Part shown: in pieces, positions 16,123 through 59,106 of the stretch | How positions within the stretch are numbered: position 1 is the stretch's first letter | Layout: each line of letters begins with the position of its first letter | Source of the DNA: Bryopsis sp. KO-2023 | Lineage: Eukaryota > Chlorophyta > Ulvophyceae > Bryopsidales > Bryopsidaceae | DNA: 64,000 nt | Direction: 5' to 3' | Assembly: GCA_030272585.1 (NCBI GenBank) | Contig: BSYQ01000010.1 | Coordinates: 4,650,001 to 4,714,000, forward strand | The notes under the pieces: model-generated | What the model was told of the DNA's origin: nothing | The model's input: only the letters and a program-made list of their open reading frames with translations | Databases searched by the model: none | Program-made: the position numbers and the translations under genes

Positions 16123-16133
16123 CAAGAAAACGA
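16123..16133 (+). repeat. Left target-site duplication of the MULE
   Basis: The 11-base sequence CAAGAAAACGA lies directly outside the left terminal inverted repeat. It is repeated exactly at 25188-25198 outside the right terminus. Mutator-like elements make 9-11 bp duplications. Confidence 0.9.
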
Positions 16134-16211
16134 TGTACCCCCATATCTGCAAATCCCATATCCGACAGTCCCATGTTCGAAAGTCCCGCGAACGCTAAAG
16201 TCCGACATACA
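16134..16211 (+). repeat. Left terminal inverted repeat of the MULE
   Basis: About 75 bases matching the reverse complement of 25093-25187 with a few differences. The right end has one extra internal copy of CATGGGACTGTCGGA, so it is somewhat longer. Confidence 0.85.
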
Positions 16212-18183
16212 CGCATCAATGTTCTGACTCTGCCTTCGTCCATTCCGCCTCAGCAACCCACCAGAATCGGAACAGCATTCCATGTCTGGCCATGCCCCAA
16301 ACTTTTCTCTTTCGCTCGTCTGCGGTCCGCAACCGTTTCCGCTTCGCAAAAGGAGCGCGCGCCACCGTCGCCGACGCCACTGCGCGTCTCTACCTCTCCA
16401 ACTCGCTGTCGCTGAGGTGGTCGTGTCGCGTCCATGTCGAATGCTGCCGAAACCCTCTGCGACCTAGGGTAAGCTCCATCTCTTTTTCGTTTTCGCTCTC
16501 TTCGCTCGTGCCCCGTGTAGAAATCACTTTCCCTGTCGCCGTTCCTTGCTCGTGTGTGTTTCTGTGTGCTGTGTGGTGTACAGGATTGCGTGCTCCTGTC
16601 AGGTTGTACGGCGTATTCCTGGGTTGACACTCCCTCTCCTCCATGCACTCTCCCTGTTGGGGAACAATGGTTTGTTTGTTCCTTTTCTTCCACTCGATTT
16701 GGTTGTCCCCTGCTCTTCTCTCTCTTGCTATTTGGTCTGCCTTTTCTTCTTTTGTTTGGTTTCCTTGACTGTCTTGGTGTCCTGTTTCCTCTCCTTGCTC
16801 ATGTGTGCATCTGTTTGCTTGGTGGTGTGCAGGGAATGTGGAATGAGTCGCCTCCAGGAGCTAATCTGACCTTCAATGAATCCAGAGCTCGATTGATGTC
16901 ATCCCATATATAGTGATGTGTATATCCACCAACAATTTTAAACGAGAAAGAAGCGCTGCATTTGAAAAGAATTCCTGGGCTGGGGGGGGATCGAAGAATG
17001 TGGTATAAAAGCGAATCCAAACCAGATGAGTGAAAGGATCCATCAGAGCCCGACAAGCTTCTTGGAAGCACACCCAGAAGCAATCCCAGAATAGAAAGCG
17101 CGCTCCTGGAGACCGCATCTCGCTGATACGGAAGAGAAGACCAGGAACCCCCAAATTAGGTACTGCTGGTTGAATATCCTCTTCGAAAAATTCATTTTCC
17201 CTTGTAGTAAAGCTCTCTTGCTGAGTCCAGTTCGTCGTACACAATCCCCAACCAAGAACAGCAGAAACCCTGCCATCAGTCCGTGTAGTTTTGTCCTTAG
17301 TGTCCCCCCGACAGTCCCTTCCAGGAAGGAGACCCAACTGGTGGTAGTGGAAACCCTTAGCCTGTGGGTGTTCAGTGGAGCCTGTAGAGACTCGCTGCTT
17401 GGATGTGCCTGTTTGATTAATGTGTTCCCTTTTCTGCTCTCTCTCTTGTGAATTTGAATGTCTTCTCCAGTGCTGTTGTCCCGAATCCCTTGTATCCCTG
17501 TTTGCCGTTGCGTGTATGTCTGGTGTGGTACCCAGCGTTGAATTTGTATGTGTCCTTGTGTGTCCCCCAGATGTCGATGAAAAGGGTAATGATCTTGTTT
17601 CGTGCTTCAGGTGATGTACAGGTGGCCATGCCCCATCAGCAACGTGCCCGAAAGAGGTTGCCGCCCAAGAACTCCTGCGGAGCAGACCACCGCGAGGGGC
17701 CGTGCCCCATCAGCAGCATATCAGGTCGTCGCGCGAGAACGGATGCGCGTGACACACAGTAGTAAATCTTCTTTCATACAGGTTGGGTTCTTGTTTCCTC
17801 CCATTCTTGTATACTTGTTCATCAAATTTTTGCAGACCATTTTGCAGTCTATTTTGTCAGGGGGGGACACTTGCTTGATTTCATGTGATGTTTTTATTGT
17901 TTTCTTTTGGGACTCATTTTTCCCTTCCCTTTCGTACTTATTTTTTCAACCAGCAAGGTTTGTTTAGCCCCCACACACACACAAACAGGAGTGCAATGGG
18001 GGCGAAGCATTTGGCCGATCGAAAATATGGCAAAAATACGGGACAGGGGGCAGTAAACCGAAACCATCGCAGCAAGGCACCTAACCGCGCTGTCCTCAAG
18101 TGAAAGTAGAAGTGATTGGAGCAGTGGGCGTTCATTTTTGAGGGGTGGAGGGGAAGTGACGTAGTGTGTGTTGTGGGGCAGGA
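16212..18183 (+). other. Left arm of the MULE without a resolved gene
   Basis: This 2-kb arm has CpG-rich DNA to about 16,460. Several plus-strand signals that look like exons follow: ATG at 16434 then a donor GTAAGC at about 16,471, and polypyrimidine tracts ending in CAG near 16,831 and 17,620. They may be 5' exons or untranslated exons of the small plus-strand gene downstream. The possible reading frames stop quickly, so no protein is claimed. Confidence 0.4.
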
Positions 18184-18602
18184 ATGGGAGGCGCTCAGGC
18201 CCAACAGCTTCAGGGTGCTAATTTGTTGTTGAGCATGCTGAGGAGAGCAACACGTCCTGCTCAGCAGGCCAATCCCTTGGTAGCGATGGCCGCTGCGCAA
18301 CAGCAACAACAGCAGCAACAGCAACAGGAATTGCCAATTGCAATTACACCAATTGCAGCAGCAGTTGCAAGTAAGTGCATTCGGAACACTACCCCCAGAA
18401 TTGTATCATGCTACCAAAAGAATAAAGCAACAAACAAAATAATGTGCCAACCCTGTCAACTGAATACGTTTTTTTTTCCTTTTGCCAAGGGGGGAATAAA
18501 TAGTAATAAAATACTTCTCTCAATTTGTGTCTAGGCCCAGAGAAAAATGGTATACGACCATCCTGCAGTTGTTTTAACGCTGCAGGGAGTACCTGTCAAT
18601 AG
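18184..18602 (+). CDS. Putative two-exon 84-residue Gln/Ala-rich protein carried by the MULE
   Basis: Exon 18184-18370 ends at a strong GTAAGT donor, and exon 18535-18602 follows a CTAG acceptor. They join in phase to an 84-residue product with a Leu/Arg-rich start (LLLSMLRRATRPAQQ), a run of ten glutamines and an AITPIAAAVAS segment. An acceptor-like GGGGCAG just before 18182 means the ATG may instead be internal to a longer spliced gene. It converges with the transposase gene, whose stop is 166 bases away, an arrangement like mudrA/mudrB in maize MuDR. No homologue is recognised. Confidence 0.5.
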
Positions 18603-18616
18603 TTCACAGTTCACTG

Positions 18617-18735
18617 ACTGGTTCAGTGTGCCACAGTTTGGTGGTGGTCGAAGTGAAATACAGTGGCGTTAGATAACTAAAAACAAAATAATTTTTTTGG
18701 GGGGTTTTTTCCCCTTCTTAAAAAAACAACTGTTG
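18617..18735 (+). repeat. Isolated copy of the MULE 120-bp satellite unit
   Basis: It contains CAGTTTGGTGGTGGTCGAAG, AAATACAGTGGCGTTAGATA and the T-run/A-run tail seen in the array at 19500-20065. It lies between the two convergent genes. Confidence 0.8.
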
Positions 18736-18767
18736 CAGCGCGTCCCAATCGTCACAACAACCCTTAA

Positions 18768-21700
18768 TCATTCGTTAACTCTTTTCCCCCAAGACTCCCT
18801 GACCATATCTAAAGCGAGTTGTCCTCTCAACGCGCTAAGATTATCGGTAGTGCATGGTACGAGTGGTTTCCCGGAAGCGAGTCTGTCTCCAAACCAGCAC
18901 ACGAATACGCCACAGCTCCAAGCGTCGTCTTGGATACGAGCTTCGTCAAGTGACCTGAAAACCCATTCTTTCTCCTTGTTCAACAGAGGGCAAAAGTCCA
19001 ACATCGCGTCGATTACGTTGTCCATGAATTCTCTGTCTGTATGTCGTGCACTGTCGATGAAGAACCCAAGTGCCTCTTTGGGTTTCAGTGCGAACAGGAT
19101 CCTATAAAGAAATGTGAAAAAATCAATAGTATTACAAGTGGAAGGATACTATAAAAAATATAGTATTCTAATACACTAGAATATTAGAATATTAATATAG
19201 TATTTTGTATATTGTATTAATAAAAATAAATAAATAATAATAATAATTAATAATTAATTAATAATAACAATAATTAATAAAAAAACATATCTTTTCAGCA
19301 TTTTTACCAGTGCTTATTCTTTTGGTTCAGGGGAATGAGAAGAAGGGATTTGCTGGATATGGAGTGGTGATCCATCCAAGAAGAAGCTCGGTCGACACCA
19401 TCGTCCATAACAAGCTTCGAGAGGGCGCAGCTCATTGCGGTAATGTCGGGCCCAGCTCTTGCAGCCCTATCCAGCTACGAAAAAAATCCACGAAAAACCC
19501 TTTTTCTAAAAGATAACTAAAAACAGAATAATTTTGGGGTTTTTTTTTCCCTTTTTTTCTTTAAAAAAAAAAAACTGGTTGGTTCAAAGTGACACAGTTT
19601 GGTGGTGGTCGAAGTGAAATACAGTGGCGTTAGATAACTAAAAACAGAATAATTTTGGGTTTTTTTTTCCCCTTTTTTCTTTTAAAAAAAAAAAACTGGT
19701 TGGTTCAAAGTGACACAGTTTGGTGGTGGTCGAAGTGAAATACAGTGGCGTTAGATAACTAAAATCAGAATAATTTTGGGGTTTTTTTTTCCCTTTTTTT
19801 CTTTTAAAAAAAAAACTGGTTGGTTCAAAGTGACACAGTTTGGTGGTGGTCGAAGTGAAATACAGTGGCGTTAGATAACTAAAAACAGAATAATTTTGGG
19901 GTTTTTTTTTCCCTTTTTTTCTTTAAAAAAAAAAAACTGGTTGGTTCAAAGTGACACAGTTTGGTGGTGGTCGAAGTGAAATACAGTGGCGTTAGATAAC
20001 TAAAAACAGAATAATTTTGGGGGGTTTTTTCCCCCTTTTTTCTTTAAAAAAAAAAAACTGGCTGGTTCAGTATCAAAGTGAATAATCTGAATATATATTT
20101 CCATGAATGAATATTCGGGATCTGGAATCGTTGGCTGTTGAACTCCAACGAGTCATTCGGTGTGGGTTTCATTGCAGTGACATGGCCATCAGGGCTATCA
20201 AGATATTCTGGAAACATGCAGTGTGGCCATTCCCTATGCTGCCTCCGAGGCAGGTCCAACTGTTGGTCAGGCAAGGAGACGCCGAGCAAAACCATGAGGT
20301 TCCATGACCCCTGGAAAAAAACTGAAGACGTGCACTGCTCGGAAAAAGTAAGGGTTGTTTGGGGGGCTATAGAGCACAGTACAACTCAGCCACAGAAAAC
20401 GTATTAAAAAAAATCCCTAGAGGCGAAAACACCGTTAATCTCCCCCCTAACATTGTCTTTACTGAAGGGGGAGTTTAGAAGGGAGGGATGAACGTGCTTG
20501 CTGCCAATGCCGAGGCTTTGTCTCGTTCAAATTAATTTGGATTAATTTGGCAGAATGCTGTTTAGCAGAAAATTGCAGCCCGGGGGGAAATACGGTTGAA
20601 AGGAAAATATAGACACCTGCATTTATGGGGGAGTGTTAGGCCATGTAGGTTTGGATACAACCTACATGGCCTAACACTCCCCCATAAATACAGGTGTCCA
20701 CATTTTCTTACACATAGTACATTTCTTACCCCATAGTCGATCACGGTATCGTTGAGCCATCCCCCCCCCCTCGTCGTTTTTAGACTTCTGACGGTCAACA
20801 ATTCTTTCGTGGGCAAAAAGCCATAAACTTCGGCGTCATCGGCTACGGTAAAGGCGCGTAAAATTTCAGTTCCCAAATTTTGGGGGGTGAAATGGTCGGG
20901 GGCTTCGATCCACTTCGTCGAAGGTGGAAGGAAATTTTCCAAATCAATCTCCGTAACCTGTATTTCTCGTGCCAAGGAACAAAAAAAATATTAAAAATAA
21001 AAATAACTTTTGCATACAATATTTAAATCATGTGGATACAAAAATTCTCGGTTGTTTCTTCGACCCTTGTACGGACCTTCGTTCCCAAACCCAAACCGGT
21101 TGTGTGGGCTTCTCCCGAACCCGAACCCGATGCTGGGGCTGCTCCCCAACCCGAATCTGTTGCCGAGGCTGCCAAAAAACCCGAACCCGATGCTGGGGCT
21201 GCTCCCCAACCCGAATCTGTTGCCGAGGCTGCCAAAAAACCCGAACCCGATGGTGGGGCTGCTCCCCAACCCGAATCTGCTGCCGAGGCTGCCAAAAAAC
21301 CCGAACCCGATGGTGGGGCTGCTCCCCAACCCGAATCTGCTGCCGAGGCTGCCAAAAAACCCGAACCCGATGGTGGGGCTGCTCCCCAACCCGAATCTGT
21401 TGTCGAGGCTGCCAAAAAACCCAATCCCGATGTTGGGGCTGCTCCCGAACCCAAACCAGTTGCAGGGGCTGCCAAAAAACCCGAACCCGATGTTGGGGCT
21501 GCCAAAAAACCCGAACCCGATGCTGGGGCTGCTCCCCAACCCGAATCTGTTGCCGAGGCTGCCAAAAAACCCGAACCCGATGCTGGGGCTGCTCCCCAAC
21601 CCGAATCTGTTGCCGAGGCTGCCAAAAAACCCGAACCCGATGGTGGGGCTGCTCCCCAACCCGAATCTATTGTCGAGGCTGCCAAAAAACCCAATCCCGA

Positions 21701-24700
21701 TGCTGGGGCTGCTCCCGAACCCAAACCAGTTGCAGGGGCTGCCAAAAAACCCGAACCCGATGTTGGGGCTGCCAAAAATCCCAAACCTGCTGCTGGGGCT
21801 GCCCCCAAACCCAAACCCGATGTTGGGGCTGCCAAAAAACCCAAACCCGTTGTTGGGGCTGCCCCCAAACCCAAACCCGATGCTGGGGCTGTCAAAAAAC
21901 TCGAACCCGCTGTTGGGGCTGCCAAAAAACCCAAACCTGATGCTGGGGCTGCCCCCGAACCCGAACCCGCTGGTGGGGCTGTTGATAAGGGAGGATCAGG
22001 AACCGTAGCTGGTGCTGGTCGAGTTTTTCCCCCCCGAAACTGCTCGGAGCCACCCTTATCAAACCCGGGTACATTATAGGCGACACCTCTCAAGAACTTT
22101 TCAAGAGTGATGTCGCCTTTAAGGAATTGCTCGTGTAGTCGAATAAGACGTTCGTCTACACGAGCGTAGGATTTTTTTTTCCTTTTAGGAGCTGCCCCGG
22201 CCTCCAGTTGTGCTATCAAAGCACCGGCGTCACTTTCCTCCTTCTGAAGTTCATCGAGGAGCTCCCATATGTTAGGGTGTGTTTTCCCTAGTAACCCGTT
22301 TAATTTTCGATGATACCCTTCTGCGAAATTTATCGTTCGGTGGTCGAAGCGATTATGAACATTCCAAATGCCTACCCCTCCCCGGTGATTCAGCCAATTA
22401 ACTCGGAAATACTCCAATAATTGGGTAATTGGGGTCACCGAACTGTTTGAGCGTTGTGAAGCTTCCTGGACAAGAATAGCAAATCCTTCGTTCACCCGGG
22501 GGGGGGGCAAGAATGCGAGAGCCATCAGTTTCTTAACAAACACCCGGAAGACTTCATCGCGATTGTATTGGGTCTTGAGACCTAAATCACAAACTCGCCG
22601 CCATATACACTGCGTGAAGTGAAAGTAACAACCGTGTATCGGAACATTCCACACCCCCCGGGCCGCCTCAATAGCGGCGTGCTCAAAATCGAGGACCATC
22701 TCCGTGGGCTGGAGATGGCGGAGGGTTTCAAACAATTTTCTGTAACTCTCCTCATCCTTGTTTGTAAGGAGAGCAAACATGCCGGGCACGGCGTTTCTGC
22801 CGTGCACCGAATGTATAATGTATATCTGTTGGAAAAAACGAGGCGCCGCTCGAAATGTGCCATCGAGAAACCAAATTTCCTGATCCATGCGCGCCAAGCT
22901 TGAGGGAGTAGCGAATATAATTATCCTTTTCTCCCCTTCCATAATATCAGCATGCAGAAAATTTTCACCGGACAAAGACTTTGCCCATTTCCCTTTCCAA
23001 AACAAAATTAAATAAATTTTACAGAAAAATTCTTTTGAAAAATACAAGCCTCGTATAAATTTCCAGCCCCCAAACCTGATTTCTAATGAAACAAAATTGA
23101 ATTCGCAGAAAAATTTTAATGATTTTTTTACTTTTATATGAGAATATATAACTTTTTCTCTTATTTTGTACAAGAGGTTTTTATTTACCCTCGTAAATAA
23201 TTTTTGCTTTTTTTATTTCTAAAAAAAAAAATCCGTACTTACTCGAGTAAATAAAAAAAAATAACTAATGCCTCACCTTCAATTTTCAGAGCACCAAGGG
23301 ACGAGGGGATACCCGGAAGTACGGCACGACGGGCGCGATACATCCTCTTTGAGAGGGTGCGAAAATTAGGTAGGGCGTTGACAACACCTAATGCGGCAGA
23401 TTCGATGCGTGCTTCCCTATATATTTTAGGGACTGAAAAAAAAATCGTTTTAATTGACCCTTGAAATTTTCGGAAAAGAAAAAAGGCAATATGGTCATCT
23501 TTGGGTTCGAATCCCAAATGCCTTAAAAAGAAATTTTCTTGTGGATCTTAGCGTATTTGTTTCCAAAAAATAAAAAAGGAAAAAATATATATATATATTT
23601 TTTAGTTCCCTGAAATATGAGATATCCACAGAAAATTTCACATGATTTTTTACTGAATCTGAGCATCTTTTTTTTTCAGAGTGCAATAGTCACACAAAAA
23701 AAAAAAATACAAGAAATTCATTTTAAAAAAAGGCAATATGGCAATCTTTGGGTTCGAATCCCAAATGCCTTAAAAAGAAATTTTCTGTGGATCTTAGCGT
23801 ATTTTTTTCCAAAAAATAAAAAAGGAAAAAAAATATATATATATTTTAGTTCCCTGAAATATGAGGTATCCACAGAAAATTTCACATAATTTTTTACTGA
23901 ATCTGAGCATCTTTTTTTTTCAGAGTGCAATAGTCACACAAAAAAATAAATATAAGAAATTCATTTTAAAAAAAGGCAATATGGCAATCTTTGGGTTCGA
24001 ATCCCAAATGCCTTAAAAAGAAATTTTCTGTGGATCTTAGCGTATTTTTTTCCAAAAAATAAAAAAGGAAAAAATATATATATATATTTTTTAGTTCCCT
24101 GAAATATGAGGTATCCACAGAAAATTTCACATAATTTTTAACTGAATCTGAGCATCGTTTTTTTCAGAGTGCAATAGTCACACACAAAAATAAATATAAG
24201 AAATTTATTTTAAAAAAAGGCAATATGGCAATCTTTGGGTTCGAATCCCAAATGCCTCGAAAAATACACTTTTTTTTTGATATTTTTAACAATCACATAC
24301 CTGGAGTGGTCTCAACAGCCGCTCGCTTTTTTATAGCCCCTTCTAGTCGTAAGACCTGAACCCTGGAAACGTCACCCGGGTGGTGATGGTCTTTTTCGTT
24401 TGTTTGGACCACTAAAGGCGTTTTCGATTTGATGCTGCATCTAGCTTCGCACTCCGTTTCGACGCAAGTGAAATAATGGGGGAGTTCTGGTTTTTTTCCG
24501 TTCGTCCGACGGAACCAATATCCATTCTCAATGTCGAAGAGAAGTTCCCCTCCTTTTTTCCCTTTTCCTAACTCCCACCGACTCATCGCTTCAACGCAAG
24601 GAACGAATCGAACCTTCCCACTCTTAAGAGTGCAGCCACAGTTGCGTCCAATATGTACATGATCGAAGTTTCCGACTGTAAGAATTCCACAGGATCGACG

Positions 24701-24790
24701 TTTCTGACTGGAACAACTCCACAGGCTCGAAGTTTCTGGAAGATGTACGTCCACTCGCATTGCCTGGGATTCGAACTGTCGCGCACTCAC
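18768..24790 (-). CDS. MULE transposase: FLYWCH zinc finger, MULE DDE core, coding minisatellite, C48 (Ulp1-like) peptidase
   Basis: Phase-consistent exons: 24790-24301, 23432-23277, 22992-21077, 20957-20730, then a final exon of about 19105-18768; one or more exons between 20730 and 19105 are not resolved. The first exon has a FLYWCH-type finger (FDIENGYWFRR, then HYFTCVETECEARC and a His cluster, roughly residues 75-140). The third has the MULE core: FLDGTFRAAPRFFQQIY with the first Asp, MVLDFEHAAIEAARG with the second, GCYFHFTQCIWRR, and FAEGYHRKLNGLLG as a candidate for the Glu region. Residues about 550-850 are minisatellite-encoded. The fourth exon starts the protease (GGGWLNDTVIDYG), and the last has QDDAWSCGVFVCWF with the oxyanion Gln and catalytic Cys. 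The exon carrying the catalytic His was not found with certainty. The start codon is provisional because short repeats overlap 24650-24760. Confidence 0.88.
19500..20065 (+). repeat. Tandem array of ~120-bp satellite unit inside the MULE
   Basis: Between four and five units of about 118-122 bases run head to tail. Each contains GACACAGTTTGGTGGTGGTC, AAATACAGTGGCGTTAGATA, AACAGAATAATTTTGGGG and a T9-C3-T6 / A11-13 tail that can fold back. They lie in an intron of the C48 part of the transposase gene. An AT-rich stretch with TAAT/TTAA runs (19130-19300) precedes them. Confidence 0.9.
20612..20698 (-). repeat. Near-perfect inverted repeat (40-bp arms, 7-bp loop)
   Basis: Arms 20612-20651 and 20659-20698 are reverse complements at 39 of 40 positions, with loop TGGATAC. 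In the transcript sense of the transposase gene the single mismatch becomes a G-U pair, so the RNA stem is unbroken. Weaker pairing continues outward for about 12 more bases. It lies about 30 bases inside the intron that begins at 20729. Confidence 0.95.
21090..21985 (-). repeat. In-frame coding minisatellite, 60-bp higher-order unit of two 30-bp halves
   Basis: About fourteen 60-base units in exact register encode, on the minus strand, runs such as SGSGFLAASATDSGWGAAPA. Each is built from two 30-base halves sharing GATGCTGGGGCTGC on the + strand. Later units (about 21,780-21,960) are diverged. The unit length is a multiple of three and lacks stop codons in several frames, so long open frames appear on both strands; only the minus frame continues from the transposase core. 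Confidence 0.9.
23484..24257 (+). repeat. Tandem ~244-bp repeats, each with a 40-nt tRNA-like minihelix (4 copies)
   Basis: Minihelix copies are at 23484-23523, 23731-23770, 23974-24013 and 24218-24257, spaced 243-247 bases. Each has AGGCA at the 5' end pairing with TGCCT at the 3' end, plus a complete T-arm-like hairpin (TTTGGG-TTCGAAT-CCCAAA). This is the acceptor-plus-T-arm half of a tRNA without D and anticodon arms. The array fills the intron between transposase exons 24301 and 23432. The sequence GGTTCGAATCC matches the RNA polymerase III B-box consensus. Confidence 0.85.
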
Positions 24791-25092
24791 AACTGTTCGA
24801 CGCCGTCACTGATCGCCCAGGAGACGACTGCCCCCCCCCCCCTCCCTCGACGACGCGCATCGATAATGCTTGGGAGGCGGGAGGTGGAGGTCCTGGTATA
24901 CAGGTTTTGGCGAGGCGAGGGGATGTCTGCAGGGGTAGACCTTCGCGCACGACGCACGCTCGGACTGCTCGGGTCTGTTATGATGCTTCCATCTCACGCG
25001 TTGCTTCGGTCGTGCGCCGAAGACAGAAACTGCAGGGCACGGAAACTTGTGTCTGTCGGACTCTTGCGCACACGTCTGTGTGTGCTGGGGGG

Positions 25093-25187
25093 ATATATGT
25101 CGGACTTTAGCGTTCGCGGGAGATGCGGACATGGGACTGTCGGATATGGGATTTGCGAACATGGGACTGTCGGACACGGGGTATAAT
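25093..25187 (+). repeat. Right terminal inverted repeat of the MULE
   Basis: Reverse complement of the left terminus with an internal duplication (CATGGGACTGTCGGA appears twice). Its outer end GGGGTATAAT abuts the 11-bp target duplication. Confidence 0.85.
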
Positions 25188-25198
25188 CAAGAAAACGA
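25188..25198 (+). repeat. Right target-site duplication of the MULE
   Basis: CAAGAAAACGA, identical to 16123-16133. Confidence 0.9.
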
Positions 25199-57558: not shown

Positions 57559-59106
57559 ATGACCGTCTCAACCCCGAGACCGGATGGGATTGCGGGGGTG
57601 CGGTGGAAAATCCCTTTCGTTGTGTTGAACATTTCGTGCTTGGCGTTGTTCGCCTACTCCTGGAAATTAGTGAGCGATGCCGGTCACGACCTGGTTTACA
57701 TCTATTTCCAACCGCTCGTTCCCGTCTTGTTGATGCTGTGGCTATGGGGCGTCAACGTGGGGTACTTCGAGACGTCAGGGATAAAGTACGACGCTCTGTT
57801 TGGAAACGAGGAGCGTCGATTTTTGTTGAGAGGGGACCAGATTTTCGAACTGGCTGCGGCGGCAACGACTCTGACGAGCGGCAGCGCTGCGGCCTTCGTG
57901 ATGGCTTTGACGGTTCAGGTCAGGAGCCTAATTTCTCTACGGTCGTCAAAGTAAGGCAGCTCTCGCTCCCGCTGAACCTGACGCAAGAAACACACATGAA
58001 TGTTGAATTTCCTTGCTCCTTAAAATACTTTTTTGAATGGAAAATTATTTTTCATGCATACCTCCAAGAAATATCTGTATTTTGCATCATCCAAGTGAAT
58101 ACATCCCAGCTCGCTCCTCCAGACAGTCAGTCCTCCCACCAACCAGGATGACTAATCACCCGCATCAACATTTTACTGAGCACTTCTGTCAACTTGTTTG
58201 CAGAATACAAAATTAGCCTCCTTGATTCCTGTTGGCCTTTATGGCTGCTTGGTGCTGTCGGCCCTTTGCCCGTTCAACGCCCTTCACAAAAGCACAAGGC
58301 TTCATTTCTCAAGTACCTTCCGGAGGGTGGTCCTGCCTGTCCAGTCTGTCACATTCTCCGACTTCATTCTGGCTGACATCCTGACATCCCTGGCCAAAGC
58401 TTTTGCCGACATCCACCGGGCATCCTGCTTAATGACCACCGGCGATACCCTGGCAGGGTACATCAATGGAACAGTTCGAGATCCGGAAAAGATATGCTCA
58501 AGAGCCTCCTGGCATGTCAATTTGGTGTTGGCGCTGCCTTATTTGTTCCGACTCTGCCAGTGTGTTATCGTTTCTCAGGTCACTGGGGACCGAAATCAAC
58601 TCAGAAATGCACTGAAGTATTCTACAGCGATCCCTGTCATTGGCCTATCCATGGTGAAATACCATGTCAGCATGGAATCTTGGACGGGATTCTGGTGGAA
58701 GCTATGGATCTTGGCATCCGTGGTTAACACACTGTACTCATACTATTGGGATATCGAAATGGATTGGGATGTGCCCTGGTTTTCACAATGTGGGAAAGCC
58801 ACGGGAGGATTTCTCAAGTCCCCCACCTTGAAGACGGATGCTATGTACACCGCTTCCTTCTACAAATGGGCGATCGGGTCGAATTTTTTCATGCGGATTG
58901 CGTGGATATATAAGCTGTCGTCGCATCTGAGGTATAACAAGAATGTGAATTTTCTGGTGGCGGTGATAGAAGTGTGCAGGAGGTTTCAATGGGTTTTCAT
59001 AAGGGTGGAGTGTGGGCTGAACAAATTGCAGGATAGTCAAAAGGGGCACACCATCAGGGGGGAAAAAGTGTACCATGTGATCGAGCAGCATGGGAGCAAT
59101 ATTTGA
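57559..59106 (+). CDS. EXS-domain membrane protein (ERD1/XPR1-related, no SPX domain)
   Basis: Two exons (57559-57918, 58204-59106) join in phase 0 to 420 residues. Hydrophobic helices come early (IPFVVLNISCLALFAYSW, PLVPVLLMLWLWGVNVGYF, LIPVGLYGCLVLSALCPF). The EXS-like core follows: FSDFILADILTSLAKAFADI, LPYLFRLCQCVIVSQ, NALKYSTAIPVIGLSMV, ILASVVNTLYSYYWDIEMDW, FFMRIAWIYKLSSHL and CRRFQWVFIRVE. The WDIxxDW and RRxQWxxxRVE elements are typical of EXS. No N-terminal SPX domain is present, so it is closer to ERD1-type Golgi proteins, linked in yeast to glycosyltransferase retention and phosphate recycling, than to the XPR1 phosphate exporter. A TGTAA polyadenylation-like motif lies about 50 bases past the stop. 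Confidence 0.9.

Follow-up and report, generated by a model that had tools for sequence, protein, structure and literature searches.

A probably autonomous, recently mobile MULE with a predicted fused FLYWCH-MULE-C48 transposase in Bryopsis sp. KO-2023

Introduction

Transposons of the MULE family move by cut-and-paste transposition and usually, although not always, have terminal inverted repeats (TIRs). Their target site duplications are 8-11 bp long (PMC6446971). Mutator transposons that encode Ulp1 are described from hydra, lancelet, Arabidopsis, maize, rice and melon, and a figure legend places Ulp1 domains in Mutator transposases (PMC2836005); the passages concerned are silent on which species have the domain fused. 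The same source describes Ginger1, whose transposase has an integrase-type core, not a MULE core, with a Ulp1 or OTU protease at its C-terminus, and suggests that Ulp1 and OTU proteases may act in transposition (PMC2836005). In plant MULEs, ULP is found in both orientations, and in the Arabidopsis KAONASHI elements (KI-MULEs), which are non-TIR, it is reversed to the transposase gene (PMC2528002). FLYWCH-MULE transposases are also known, including those of the Phantom and MuDRx-Phytophthora groups, for which the passages describing them list no Ulp1 domain; Phantom has duplications of 8-10 bp, and the Tm1 family has MITE-like relatives (PMC6446971; PMC3169594).

The window analyzed here is a stretch of 64,000 nucleotides from the green alga Bryopsis sp. 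KO-2023 (assembly GCA_030272585.1, contig BSYQ01000010.1, positions 4,650,001 to 4,714,000). It contains what we consider, with good confidence from the sequence, to be an autonomous and recently mobile MULE with a fused FLYWCH-MULE-C48 transposase. Because Ulp1 in Mutator and FLYWCH-MULE transposases are both in print, the element is a variant combining known parts, and a well-preserved one of a kind known from plants and animals. It shares the C48/Ulp1 domain with the Mutator-Ulp1 transposons and differs from them, compared by description only, in a FLYWCH-like finger and a repeat linker. A borderline FLYWCH match beside its MULE domain recalls Phantom and MuDRx-Phytophthora, its duplication is 8 bp and its short relatives recall those of Tm1, but unlike what is listed for those groups it has an Ulp1 domain. 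It resembles Ginger1 in the C-terminal protease and KI-MULE in being a MULE with a ULP domain; in contrast to KI-MULE, it has TIRs and its C48 domain lies on the transposase strand. In a limited search of papers, none was found that has FLYWCH, MULE and Ulp1 together, and for at least two out of FLYWCH, the MULE transposase domain and Peptidase C48 the one paper to come up was PMC3169594.

Boundaries of the element

The original prediction of an intact MULE of about 9 kb is upheld by termini that are common to copies elsewhere in the genome (Table 1). Its inverted termini are present as 70-nt arms with 90% complementarity, and in both the target duplication (8 bp) and these repeats the element has the marks of a MULE. 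The perfect 11-bp target duplication proposed with it stands only as an exact repeat: CAAGAAAACGA is present at 16123-16133 and again at 25188-25198, and neither strand of the window has it at any other place (0.11 occurrences expected; two or more in 1 of 100 shuffles). The copies on C5 and C7 have different flanks, yet share GA before TGTACCCC and C after TATAAT. Since the copies thus have GA on the left and TC on the right in common, we moved the ends to 16132-25188 and cut the duplication to 8 bp; with GA...TC ends, the 11-bp repeat is therefore an 8-bp duplication plus chance matches between end and flank on both sides.

An exact 8-bp duplication, different in sequence each time, flanks all 15 two-ended elements outside C1 (3 long and 12 short), of which 14 were counted in one scan and one, the 962-bp element L031, separately, as it lies beyond the length filter of that scan. 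A duplication of 11 bp was rejected because all 15 elements are accounted for by GA...TC ends and 8 bp, as was one of 9 bp, which fits some copies only if the ends are shifted between copies.

Table 1. Features of the element, in window positions.
Feature	Position	Strand	Basis
Whole element, 9057 bp, GATGTACCCC...GGGGTATAATC	16132..25188	.	Ends same in 3 long copies, similar in 12 short elements
Left 8-bp target site duplication, AAGAAAAC	16124..16131	.	Copy comparison
Right 8-bp target site duplication, AAGAAAAC	25189..25196	.	Copy comparison
Left TIR	16132..16209	+	Arm 16140-16209 pairs with 25096-25165, 90%
Right TIR	25096..25188	-	Inverted-repeat pairing with left arm
Predicted exon 1, from first in-frame ATG (tentative start codon), with borderline FLYWCH finger	24301..24760	-	Pfam, frame, copies
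Predicted exon 2	23277..23432	-	Phase; splice sites kept in 3/3 copies
Predicted exon 3; MULE DDE domain and 290-aa repeat linker	21077..22992	-	Pfam, phase, alignment
Predicted exon 4; C48 domain start (WLND motif)	20730..20957	-	Phase, Ulp1 alignment
Predicted exon 5; C48 to catalytic His (HW)	19308..19474	-	Ulp1 alignment; L069 homology ends at same border
Predicted exon 6, last; C48 catalytic Asp, Gln, Cys and stop codon	18768..19101	-	Pfam, phase, Ulp1 alignment
Candidate further exon, considered and rejected	20059..20310	-	Copies, Ulp1 alignment
30/60-bp coding repeat array making linker	21118..21981	-	Repeat scans
121-bp tandem array in long C48 intron; 4.6 copies, 7.6 in C7 copy	19511..20069	.	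Repeat scans
About 244-bp tandem array in intron 1; 3.2 copies, 5.2 in C7 copy	23479..24257	.	Repeat scans
Hairpin in long C48 intron, 49-nt arms 94% complementary	20603..20707	.	6 genome matches, all within three long copies

Long copies and short relatives

We searched the genome (91 Mb, 28 contigs) with the transposase exon and the left terminus. The proposed check for further copies with the same termini found two near-full ones, on C5 and C7, with identical ends, so that the result named beforehand as speaking against the element, copies with different boundaries, was not seen. The two are 99.97% and about 99% identical to the window element (n=2): across 9057 bp the C5 copy differs by one substitution and two gap runs, while the C7 copy differs by 30 substitutions and nine gap runs and has extra units in both intron arrays. 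Near-identity combined with different duplications indicates recent transposition. None of the nine indel runs between the window and C7 copies falls within exons, and substitutions number 6 in 3261 exon bases versus 24 in the 5788 others, a difference that is not significant (Fisher p 0.085).

The left-terminus search gave 37 matches genome-wide, which we sorted into three long copies (6 ends), two derivatives on C1 (4), 12 short elements (24), and three matches with one end only (C10:2327959, C6:1270448 and C8:4726584). Eleven of the short elements are 339-410 bp long and L031 is 962 bp, and their termini are 84-87% identical to the left terminus of the window element. In L031 (C16:112609-113571) the left end lies about 570 bp from the rest of the left terminus, as if an insertion had occurred near that end. 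The short elements and the C1 derivatives have the right end CGGTGTATAATC, the window element CGGGGTATAATC; a sister subfamily may thus have moved the short elements, as their right ends match those of the C1 derivatives and not that of the window element.

The C1 derivatives are rearranged, without exact duplication, and have a stop in exon 1. In both, a single pair of termini encloses the FLYWCH exon together with a portion of the last C48 exon, at about 88-96% DNA identity, which argues that these exons have been together for some time. Compared with a C1 derivative, exon 1 (153 codons) and a 65-codon part of the last exon each have a dN/dS of about 0.5; a 45-codon part of the last exon compared with a C2 fragment, itself carrying a stop, has 0.22 (stops excluded in both cases). 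As signs of selection, these values are suggestive only.

Downstream of the transposase gene, the stretch 17985-18375 recurs with 91-97% identity at four places outside the long copies, namely C10:2327134, two on C1 and C7:5497356, the last without a terminus match; the C1 derivatives, for comparison, have termini with about 88% identity. It is possible that the stretch is a second, plus-strand gene or a regulatory region; for such a gene, a search of 16132-18767 gave two guessed peptides without a Pfam family. Among the transposase matches listed, at least 16 of the 31 lie on C2 (8.8 Mb), at least 12 of these with stops, and C2 seems to be a collector of decayed MULE relics.

Structure of the predicted transposase

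The preferred model is a minus-strand gene of six exons and 3261 bases, that is, 1086 residues and a stop (Table 1), in which all introns are GT...AG and the phases agree. Exons 1-4 comprise 920 codons from the first ATG and join in phase, close to the 930 codons over four large exons first proposed. The reading frame is open and the splice sites are kept in all three long copies, which are near-identical and thus not independent. Two splice contexts are weak, the donor GTCCGT after exon 3 and the acceptor GGAAAG before it.

All three domains predicted were matched by Pfam profiles on open frames, just over the cut-off. MULE (PF10551) scores 29.9 bits on its open frame against a cut-off of 27.6, and 30.7 in a longer protein; FLYWCH scores 24.4 on its own open frame against 23.6, but drops to 19.2, under the cut-off, when 546 residues of the predicted protein are scanned; Peptidase_C48 (PF02902; cut-off 20.7) scores 21.2 in the last exon alone and 46.5 in the joined exons. 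The MULE residues D249, D307 and E430, like the C..H motif, are matched at all positions that align in five relatives from this genome, three of which cover D, D and E. In the C48 domain, the columns for His, Asp, Gln and Cys, the catalytic residues of C48/Ulp1, are matched in the alignment with the 1euv chain. The linker between MULE and C48 domains (residues 542-831) consists of Ala/Gly/Ser/Pro-rich repeats.

An extra exon at 20310-20059, likewise in phase, would give a seven-exon gene of 1170 aa with 84 residues inserted into the C48 domain. Its donor is GT in the window but GG in the aligned C7 copy, and it breaks the match to Ulp1: without it the C48 region aligns with yeast Ulp1 (1euv) gap-free across the exon join (query 54-201, E 6e-8), whereas with it E rises to 0.0029. 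The Pfam C48 scores (46.5 bits without the exon, 45.4 with it) are by themselves not decisive. We rejected this exon on the broken alignment and regard the seven-exon gene as very unlikely. Two relatives bear on the exon borders of the six-exon model: homology to L069, a degenerate relative on C2, extends no further than the same His-Trp exon border, while the homology to L064 has both its limits close to those of exon 4.

Relation between transposase and protease

The original prediction that transposase and protease are made as one spliced polyprotein fared differently in its two parts, the single spliced gene gaining support and the polyprotein, with self-processing, finding none. One spliced gene for FLYWCH, MULE and C48 is well supported as a prediction, because the phases match, exon 4 has no methionine, all three copies keep the frame and the joins restore the Ulp1 alignment. 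An origin of the C48 exons as a separate captured gene on the same strand, with its own promoter, would be in keeping with plant MULEs, where a ULP gene may stand apart and may point either way (PMC2528002; PMC13317346), and three C48 relatives on C2 have no MULE match in the short stretches examined. However, exon 4 has no in-frame methionine ahead of its conserved WLND motif, and exon 3 enters it in phase 0 through a GT-AG pair kept in the three near-identical copies, which makes a separate gene improbable. The fusion is not general in this genome, as seven other MULE places matching the protein (C13, C8, two on C12, C3, C6 and C5) have no C48 match in the short stretches examined. No recent capture of C48 from a host ULP gene is visible, since at E 0.001 the element protein is not matched by any of the loci of the C48 places that Pfam lists for the genome, at least nine in number.

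SUMO proteases cut after Gly-Gly. A protease tethered by a long linker could in principle free the transposase from the fusion by cleaving its own polyprotein, but Gly-Gly, while found elsewhere in the predicted protein, is absent from the linker, and the parts of the protein scanned have no Pfam match to a SUMO-like fold. Self-cleavage is thus highly improbable, and self-processing is less likely than removal of SUMO, by the protease of the fused transposase, from proteins present where the element inserts or excises.

Repeats and other features of the window

The predicted richness in internal repeats was borne out by repeat scans, in coding sequence as well as introns (Table 1). The units of the array in intron 1 contain GGGTTCGAATCCC, which resembles a tRNA T-arm or B box; searches of the window for tRNA genes and Rfam families found none, including at 23479-24257 for tRNA. 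The unit of the 121-bp array and the stretch 18613-18695, just past the stop codon, have 83 bp in common at 92-93% identity, from which one seems to have been copied from the other and amplified in the intron. Outside the element, an open frame at 58180-59100 with a strong match to the EXS family (223 bits) is probably a host gene.

Discussion

In the mechanism that we propose for the window element, a single spliced minus-strand transcript would encode the transposase, in which the FLYWCH-like finger at the N-terminus is the probable DNA-binding part. The MULE DDE core would cut and join the element ends and leave the 8-bp duplications; cut-and-paste transposition by this core follows from family membership and from the duplications. 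It was probably this transposase, or one closely related to it, that mobilized the 12 short elements. At the C-terminus, the Ulp1-type cysteine protease domain would be tethered through the flexible repeat linker and could act on proteins at the place of insertion or excision by removing their SUMO. That it takes SUMO-like tags off proteins of the transposition complex, or off host silencing or repair factors, is the least certain step, and we hold it to be possible rather than probable. Tentative, and somewhat more doubtful still, is the suggestion that this is a still-active MULE with a Ulp1-type deSUMOylase as a working domain of its transposase, in which removal of SUMO would be part of movement or of escape from silencing.

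Proteases of the Ulp1 and OTU types are found repeatedly on transposases that are not related to one another. The family described here, whose long copies are near-identical, whose catalytic residues are intact and whose short relatives have similar ends, is suited to testing the role of the protease domain by domain.
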